Source of the DNA: Dyella mobilis
GTDB taxonomy: Bacteria; Pseudomonadota; Gammaproteobacteria; Xanthomonadales; Rhodanobacteraceae
Direction of reading: 5' to 3'
Assembly: GCF_016904945.1 (NCBI RefSeq)
Contig: NZ_JADIKF010000032.1
Span: forward strand, 1-64,000
DNA length: 64,000 nucleotides
Each line of letters opens with the position of its first letter. The first letter of the stretch is position 1. Made by a program: the position numbers and the translations under genes. Positions 37,808 through 39,055 of this stretch are shown here, one piece after another. The notes under the pieces are model-generated. The model ran no database searches, was not told where the DNA came from, and worked only from the letters and a program-made list of their open reading frames with translations.

Positions 37808-37825
37808 TTCGATAGGCGCGTTAAT

Positions 37826-37864
37826 AAAAAAGGCGGAAGCGAGTGATCGCTTCCGCCTTTTTTA
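37826..37864 (+). terminator. Rho-independent terminator of the mannose operon
   Basis: GGCGGAAGCGA (37832-37842), loop GTGA, TCGCTTCCGCC (37847-37857), then a T7 run to 37864, preceded by an A-run. Perfect 11-bp stem, 19 bp past the isomerase stop. Confidence 0.95.
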
Positions 37865-37981
37865 TTGGGCGAATCATCCGCACCAAAACGCGATGTAGCA
37901 CTCTCCACACATCCGACGAAGCCGAGCCACCCTGCACCGAGCACGCCCAACAAAACCACCATCACCCTTAAAACCACCGTC

Positions 37982-38001
37982 ACCCCGGCGAAGGCCGGGG
38001 T
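37982..38001. repeat. REP-like palindrome ACCCCGGC-GAAG-GCCGGGGT
   Basis: Perfect 8-bp arms around GAAG, followed by CCAGCGACTTT. This form, a proline-codon-like palindrome followed by TCCAG, is a common dispersed intergenic repeat of proteobacteria. It lies in the non-coding stretch 37865-38186, where I see no gene. Confidence 0.7.
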
Positions 38002-38186
38002 CCAGCGACTTTCGCCCCACCCACATCACTGCGCTTTGCCGAAACAGAGCAGTGCCGCCATTCAGCTCGACTAACCACCCAACATGTCACCGAACACGCA
38101 AAATTCCGACACCCGAATTACAACGAAAAAAAGCCCCCATCGCCCAACGCTGACATACGTAAGGCAAAATACCTACACGGATGCAC

Positions 38187-38366
38187 AGCGCGACTGAAGC
38201 GCTTTTGCGTTGACGCCAAGAGGATCGGGTTTTAGCGTTGATATGTCGCTGCTAAAACAGCGGCCGGGTGTAGGAACCCGATGTTCAACGCGCACAGGGC
38301 GCCGCAAGGCGCTTTTGTGTGTCCAAGTTCGCCTATGGCGGACGTGTCGGGCAAGCGCAAGCTTGG
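38187..38366 (+). ncRNA. Candidate structured RNA with two GNRA-loop hairpins
   Basis: Closely packed stems: AGCGC/GCGCT (38187-38203) then TTTT; ATCGGGTT (38224-38231) with AACCCGAT (38275-38282); GCGTTGA (38235-38241) with TCAACGC (38285-38291), which crosses the previous stem as a pseudoknot or alternative fold; CGCTG/CAGCG (38247-38262); GCGCC-GCAA-GGCGC (38299-38312) then TTTT; CGCC-TAT-GGCG (38330-38340); CAAGC-GCAA-GCTTG (38352-38365). From memory, this layout and its frames resemble the regions annotated as 'ash' or 'Icd-like' proteins and the C4 antisense RNA class of P4/P1-type phages. It ends about 90 bp upstream of a small gene it may control. Orientation is inferred from that gene and the T-runs. 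Confidence 0.55.
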
Positions 38367-38456
38367 CTGAATTCGTTGAACTCAGTTTCCTACCCTGGCG
38401 CGTCCGCCACCCATCCTGATCGTGGCGGCCATCCCCAACATGGAATGGAGCCCACC

Positions 38457-38741
38457 ATGAGCACCCACTCACGCGATCAATGGATTGCCCTGCACGCCCA
38501 ATACCTCGTCGACCCTCAAGTCAGCCGCCACGGCTTGCTCATGGACGCCCAGATTTTCCTCGACAGCGCCCACGGCATCGCCCAAACGATGAGCGACGTC
38601 ATGAGCGAAGATGACATCCCCAACAGCGACCGACTTTGTTCGGCATTGAATGGCATCGCGCTATTGGTGGAGATGGGCCGGCGGTGCGTCGCGCAGGCGG
38701 AGTTGCGGATCATGACGGGCGGGAATCGAATACAAAAATAA
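38457..38741 (+). CDS. Small protein of unknown function downstream of the structured RNA
   Basis: 94-residue predominantly helical, soluble, acidic-middle protein (MSTHSRDQWIALHAQYLV...); no signal peptide or membrane helix. ATG at 38457 follows GGAG with good spacing. The frame is open upstream to 38319 through the structured RNA, which I consider non-coding. Small proteins of similar size and pattern (DUF3077-like in Pseudomonas) often follow the same kind of leader, from memory. Function unknown; no partner genes nearby. Confidence 0.6.
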   Translation: MSTHSRDQWIALHAQYLVDPQVSRHGLLMDAQIFLDSAHGIAQTMSDVMSEDDIPNSDRLCSALNGIALLVEMGRRCVAQAELRIMTGGNRIQK

Positions 38742-39055
38742 AGACCTAGCCATAGCGACGTGTATTTCCTCGGAATCGCGCCAAAAGCAAAGCCGTTGAG
38801 CGGGCAACACAACAACTAAAACCACGTAAATAGCCACTTTTAAGAAAAAGGCGCCACCACTTACGCGGCATGTAAGTCATCACTTAAACGCAAAAGGAAG
38901 GCTGTTTCTCCATGCCTGCTGGCACCGGCGAAAGCCAAGTGTGGCTCGACTTATCCAGACCCATCCTCTCGCACTAGCGCCATTTTGCGAGCTTGCAGTA
39001 TTGTCGGACGGTTGCCAGGGATGGCGAGCCACTCCCCACCGCTACAGGGCCCTAC
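38742..39055. other. Intergenic region, no gene seen
   Basis: 314 bp, more A/T-rich than the surroundings in its first half. No convincing terminator, promoter or ORF; overlapping frames at 38941-39300 are shadows of the peptidase gene. The peptidase promoter must lie here. Confidence 0.5.

Follow-up and report, generated by a model that had tools for sequence, protein, structure and literature searches.

The structured RNA at positions 38187-38366 of the window (the whole stretch that was analysed, 64,000 nt of DNA from the soil bacterium Dyella mobilis) is a C4-type antisense module, and the locus is probably a self-contained attenuator of the C4/CI type. Judged from the sequence, C4 most likely limits its own operon and keeps a small downstream ORF nearly off. 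In Rfam covariance searches, the C4 and isrK models were matched above their gathering scores, the latter marginally, and the c4-a1b1 model just below its own (Table 1). The c4-a1b1 match was full-length (E 2.9e-9 in a search of 701 bases), and homologous leaders at loci L001, L002, L043, L052, L054 and L057 reached the gathering score. The likeness to C4-type phage RNAs that the original prediction had seen was thus borne out. The interval 38187-38366 took in the promoter region, the leader with the a1/b1 targets, the terminator hairpin and the 5' portion of C4, and it cut through a module that began near 38210 with the -35 box and ended at 38414 with C4, the ORF then reaching to 38741. Within these misplaced limits, the predicted dense structure was supported by covariation and by a folding energy on the plus strand of -81.7 kcal/mol versus -68.3 ± 4.3 kcal/mol for dinucleotide shuffles (z = -3.2; 2 of 200 shuffles equally good), the minus strand being weaker relative to its shuffles (z = -2.3). 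No tRNA or tmRNA was found in the window. Two ORFs, 38210-38419 on the plus strand (no Pfam match) and 38173-38472 on the minus strand, were treated as chance readings of the structured region.

Table 1. Features of the C4 module and its surroundings (positions in the window)
Feature	Position	Strand	Remarks
Lineage-specific insertion containing the module	37808-38991		No counterpart at the junction in G007 and G008 (BLAST)
-35 element TTGACG (putative)	38210-38215	+	TTGAC at the same distance from hairpin 1 in 14/14 modules
c4-a1b1 target RNA, RF03163	38232-38284	+	42.2 bits, gathering 46.7; below threshold
-10-like element TAGCGT (putative)	38233-38238	+	17-nt spacer; TA at the same position in 14/14 modules
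isrK-like leader RNA, RF01394	38245-38318	+	50.2 bits, gathering 50; marginally above
Leader hairpin 1	38245-38251 with 38258-38264	+	Kept in 25/25 loci, with changes on both sides
a1 target GTAGGAA, loop of leader hairpin 2	38270-38276	+	7 Watson-Crick pairs with 38387-38393
b1 target GTTCAACG	38283-38290	+	8 Watson-Crick pairs with 38374-38381
Alternative antiterminator-like hairpin GCGC-ACAGG-GCGC	38290-38302	+	One base in common with b1; competes with terminator
Terminator hairpin AGGGCGCC-GCAA-GGCGCTTT plus T (predicted)	38296-38316	+	Stem 38296-38303/38308-38315
C4 antisense RNA, RF01695	38331-38414	+	58.1 bits, gathering 45
C4 stem P2 with GCAA cap	38352-38356/38361-38365	+	Fold
b' loop of C4, CGTTGAAC	38374-38381	+	Perfect complement of b1
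a' stretch of C4, TTCCTAC	38387-38393	+	Perfect complement of a1
Second hairpin CCGCCAC/GTGGCGG	38404-38428	+	Conserved; would compete with C4 stem P1
94-aa ORF, small helical protein (predicted)	38457-38741	+	Homologues in 13 other genomes at E ≤ 0.001

The RNA possessed the three stems of C4 and the a' and b' loops complementary to target sequences, with a GG at the 5' position expected for an RNase P-type C4 end. Known C4 RNAs are processed by RNase P to about 77 nt, and by analogy the mature C4 would span approximately 38337-38411, cleavage occurring at the GG. A total of 25 homologous loci from 12 genomes were aligned, the Dyella relatives in the comparison including D. flava (G007), D. 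lipolytica, D. dinghuensis and D. psychrodurans; 14 modules, from Dyella and one sister genus, had one common layout. The search for compensatory changes in homologues, on which the original prediction had been made to depend, showed double-sided changes in 15 of the 46 consensus pairs and both antisense helices kept. Since the loci had been selected with the C4 model and were mutually related, the selection itself could favour conservation of stems; it cannot favour the matches of a with a' and b with b', because these join C4 to a region outside C4. Both antisense helices were present at all 25 loci despite differing sequences, which indicates compensatory change. The a helices were 6-8 bp and the b helices 6-11 bp long, some with G-U pairs, and the b-helix sequences were nearly as numerous as the loci.

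Cognate partners paired better than permuted ones for b (score 9.95 versus a permutation mean of 5.56 ± 0.28) and for a (8.66 versus 5.40 ± 0.36), values reached by 0 of 5000 permutations in either case, a figure that is not a strict probability because the loci are related. A cruder comparison of 31 loci went in the same direction (14.2 versus 10.7 paired bases). The four modules of the D. mobilis genome each scored highest with their own partner, and in its 5.18 Mb the exact a1-b1 tandem occurred only in its own target and, reversed, in the loops of its own C4. No second a or b site above chance was found before the ORF in the stand-alone modules, and translational control of the P1 type, which would need a2/b2 at the ribosome-binding site, was rejected for the module; several phage-type loci do carry a second a/b site at that position. 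In D. lipolytica, L084 and L085 were 91% identical in 463 bp spanning C4 and the ORF, yet their a and b codes differed, suggesting a pairing code that changes fast. The second hairpin, immediately behind C4, was conserved in stand-alone and phage-type loci alike, with a mean pairing score of 11.96 versus 6.94 ± 0.40 after shuffling.

The promoter and the transcription start, the latter near 38245, are inferred, as they are based on conserved spacing and a consensus promoter scan reported no promoter at the module, the -10 element being poor. The predicted terminator hairpin had a folding energy of about -11.5 to -12.5 kcal/mol, and its core stem was present in 24 of the 25 loci. Its T-run is short (four T), and the homologue L087 has none. 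Two GCAA-capped stems had been pointed out in the original prediction, and both are there, one as this terminator and the other as C4 stem P2; their GNRA loops are not conserved (the P2 loop is mostly TTCG and the terminator loops vary) and mark stability only, a functional role of the loops not being supported. As for the two stems followed by T-runs, one is the predicted terminator, whereas the stem 38187-38203 with its TTT lies outside the conserved module.

Mutually exclusive hairpins between b1 and the T-run were observed at 24 of the 25 loci, and in all 24 of these b1 lay within the stem of the alternative hairpin. The alternative hairpin had a mean folding energy of -8.8 kcal/mol, versus -3.9 kcal/mol with the upstream bases shuffled and -2.3 kcal/mol with b1 blocked. 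Since blocking b1 weakens the alternative hairpin, C4 bound to b1 should favour the terminator. The window has a weak version of the alternative hairpin (-6.0 kcal/mol), which shuffled sequence equalled in 36% of trials, and most homologues have a stronger one; the switch model therefore rests more on the family than on this copy.

Regulation would then probably proceed as follows. The upstream promoter would start the transcript at leader hairpin 1, and reading through the a1/b1 leader and the terminator hairpin would extend it into C4 and the small ORF. C4 would be excised from this transcript, by RNase P if it behaves like known C4 RNAs, and the a' and b' loops would then bind a1 and b1 on nascent transcripts made later from the same locus. 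Pairing at b1 would remove the base of the alternative hairpin, whereupon the terminator would form and transcription stop before C4 and the ORF. The outcome would be negative feedback, with the ORF kept low and able to rise only once the C4 pool shrinks. As C4 is located downstream of the terminator, its own supply would also suffer under strong termination.

This arrangement resembles that of phage P4, in which CI RNA is reported to cause premature termination by pairing with seqA and to act at seqA and seqC (PMC4825925). Here as in P4, the antisense RNA and an upstream target are carried on one transcript, and by analogy the module would work like P4 seqA-CI without seqC; P4 differs in having the downstream target seqC and replication genes, whereas the module has one small ORF and lies outside a phage. 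IsrK of Salmonella prophage Gifsy-1, termed a structural homologue of seqA RNA, likewise combines a leader with a terminator and is read through into a longer transcript (PMC4825925), but the module lacks anrP/antQ-like genes and has a host-chromosome setting. The C4 of P1/P7 shares with it the fold, the a' and b' loops, the RNase P-type 5' end and an upstream a1/b1 leader; that C4 occludes a ribosome-binding site (PMC5320573), a downstream target of which no counterpart was found in the module. Chromosomal families of C4-like sRNAs with variable loops, for which immunity or host targets have been proposed, were described in Acinetobacter (PMC5320573). Those of A. baumannii Group 1, like the ones in Dyella, occur in many copies per genome with variable a'/b' loops; their targets were not identified (PMC5320573), whereas every Dyella module comes with a matching target in cis and an ORF of a dedicated family. 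In some relatives, matches to C4 were as numerous as 12 (G026, many of them below the gathering score) and 10 (G057).

The product of the 94-codon ORF was predicted to form three helices (mean pLDDT 78). It had no match in Pfam or in the plasmid search, a single insignificant match in PHROGs (E 0.14) and no significant structural relatives, the best having E values of about 1 (PDB) and 0.5 (viral models); weak matches to WXG100-like helical hairpins were not accepted as relationship. Values of dN were 0.24-0.29 versus a dS of 1.9-2.7, the latter being near saturation for some pairs. A profile of the family had matches in 20 of 299 genomes of the order, with up to 16 copies per genome, and most copies, including six in the D. 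mobilis genome, were not located behind a C4. The non-C4 copies examined were preceded by another leader, conserved and rich in hairpins, which is about 450 nt long, has what looks like an upstream ORF (MATPDDT...) and precedes most copies of the family (L008:1030-1494 and L009-L012 in the D. mobilis genome; L044, L048-L051, L055, L056, L058 and L062). In this leader, 13 of 69 predicted pairs covaried among 14 Dyella sequences and nothing above gathering was found in Rfam at these positions; it is a candidate for a new RNA family on these sequence grounds. In two sister genera (G165, G240, G254, G258 and others), the ORF family was amplified to 10-16 copies per genome, some with in-frame stops, and the long leaders of these copies were alike and started in a manner resembling the Dyella leader.

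The module is located in a carbohydrate-gene neighbourhood, between genes for a GlcNAc-2-epimerase and an M1 peptidase that are directly adjacent in G007 (D. flava) and G008. The absence of phage context noted at the outset was supported, as the locus lies between host genes and like loci are mostly host-flanked: within the 25 commonest flanking families, neither it nor 11 like loci had the surrounding phage genes of a prophage or satellite immunity region. Among these 25 families, taken from the flanks of 12 of the 14 stand-alone modules, host genes were found with the exception of one integrase and RepB, and no other phage structural or replication family occurred; rare phage genes could have escaped notice. 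Three prophage or satellite C4 loci in the same genus, by comparison, were flanked by integrase, replication and tail-fibre families. Three of the four C4 modules in the D. mobilis genome, including that of the window, are followed by a member of one ORF family. The fourth (L003/L079, contig C33 near 11457) has a 68-codon ORF behind it and is satellite-like, near an int-alpA RNA; on its other side is a gene whose product, on our reading of its sequence, resembles a TIR-domain protein. A REP-like palindromic repeat, CCCCGGCGAAGGCCGGGGTCCAG, at 37975-38015 of the window had dozens of matches across the genus.

The closest modules, with proteins 65-66% identical, were found at other sites in G003 and G007, and homology with them covered only some 530 bp, starting at the promoter and stopping where the ORF ends. 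Another D. mobilis module (C31:243061, near a tRNA gene) and one in G007 had downstream genes in common, with 87% and 83% DNA identity, about 2 kb of extra sequence lying in between in G007. The modules have thus both moved and been kept, since sites differ between species and yet one neighbourhood is common to two species. The module lies outside any recognisable prophage. The earlier suggestion of a chromosomally domesticated regulator is plausible.

That the locus is what remains of the immunity region of a phage or satellite, decaying and without present function, is unlikely, if not negligible. Prophage and satellite C4 modules do occur in the same genus, some of their ORFs being distant relatives (G006 and G025 loci), module sites vary from species to species, and at L059, where no C4 is recognisable, just the ORF and the region of the 3' hairpin are left. 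Pairing should be the first thing to go in a decaying element, whereas both antisense helices are intact here and at all other loci examined; moreover, non-synonymous changes in the ORF are far fewer than synonymous ones, and the module L078/L082 stands in the same gene neighbourhood in two species. The pairing code bears on a quite unlikely reading, namely a C4 kept on the chromosome for immunity, silencing incoming phages or satellites that have the same a/b code, as likewise proposed for the Acinetobacter C4 family (PMC5320573). Codes differ between modules, even between the closely alike L084 and L085, as an arms race predicts, and the a code of the window (GTAGGAA) is shared by six C4-type leaders on viral contigs (L136 and L138-L142). 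In several of these leaders the a code is repeated behind C4 (GTAGGAAGG), where it would overlap a ribosome-binding site. However, the b1 sequence of the window was in none of the viral leaders found, its DNA module had no match in the phage collection, and every module retains a cis target of its own and a conserved ORF, neither of which would be required for immunity alone.

Action in trans on unlinked host mRNAs, with C4 as a domesticated sRNA and the cis target secondary, was suggested for the Acinetobacter C4-like sRNAs (PMC5320573); it is highly improbable for the module, as the uniqueness of the exact a1-b1 tandem in the genome, assessed by exact matches only, argues against it. Almost certainly wrong is the view of the stem block as a single pseudoknotted RNA of its own kind. 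The perfectly complementary stretches at 38224-38282 and 38235-38291, taken in the original prediction as crossing pairs, do exist, but they use bases of the -10/spacer region upstream of the inferred start and are absent from the orthologous modules in G003 and G007. The self-contained C4/CI-type attenuator remains the preferred reading.

C4, CI and IsrK RNAs and the chromosomal C4-like sRNAs of Acinetobacter are already known. As far as an incomplete literature search shows, so that earlier descriptions may exist, stand-alone cassettes with their own target and ORF family, codes insulated from one another within a genome and the predicted hairpin switch are new. More tentatively, such self-silencing C4 attenuators may have been adopted by bacterial chromosomes, spreading as a cassette of about 530 bp without a recombinase of its own and diversifying their codes so that copies stay mutually insulated, each governing its own small helical protein; this is possible, with the odds somewhat against it. 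The many natural cognate pairs, 25 of them aligned, provide a ready set for testing target choice by C4/CI RNAs, and the association opens the question of the role of a repeatedly amplified small-protein family. The module shows an antisense immunity circuit of the phage type retained away from phages, together with a gene dedicated to it and a pairing code whose two parts can be read.
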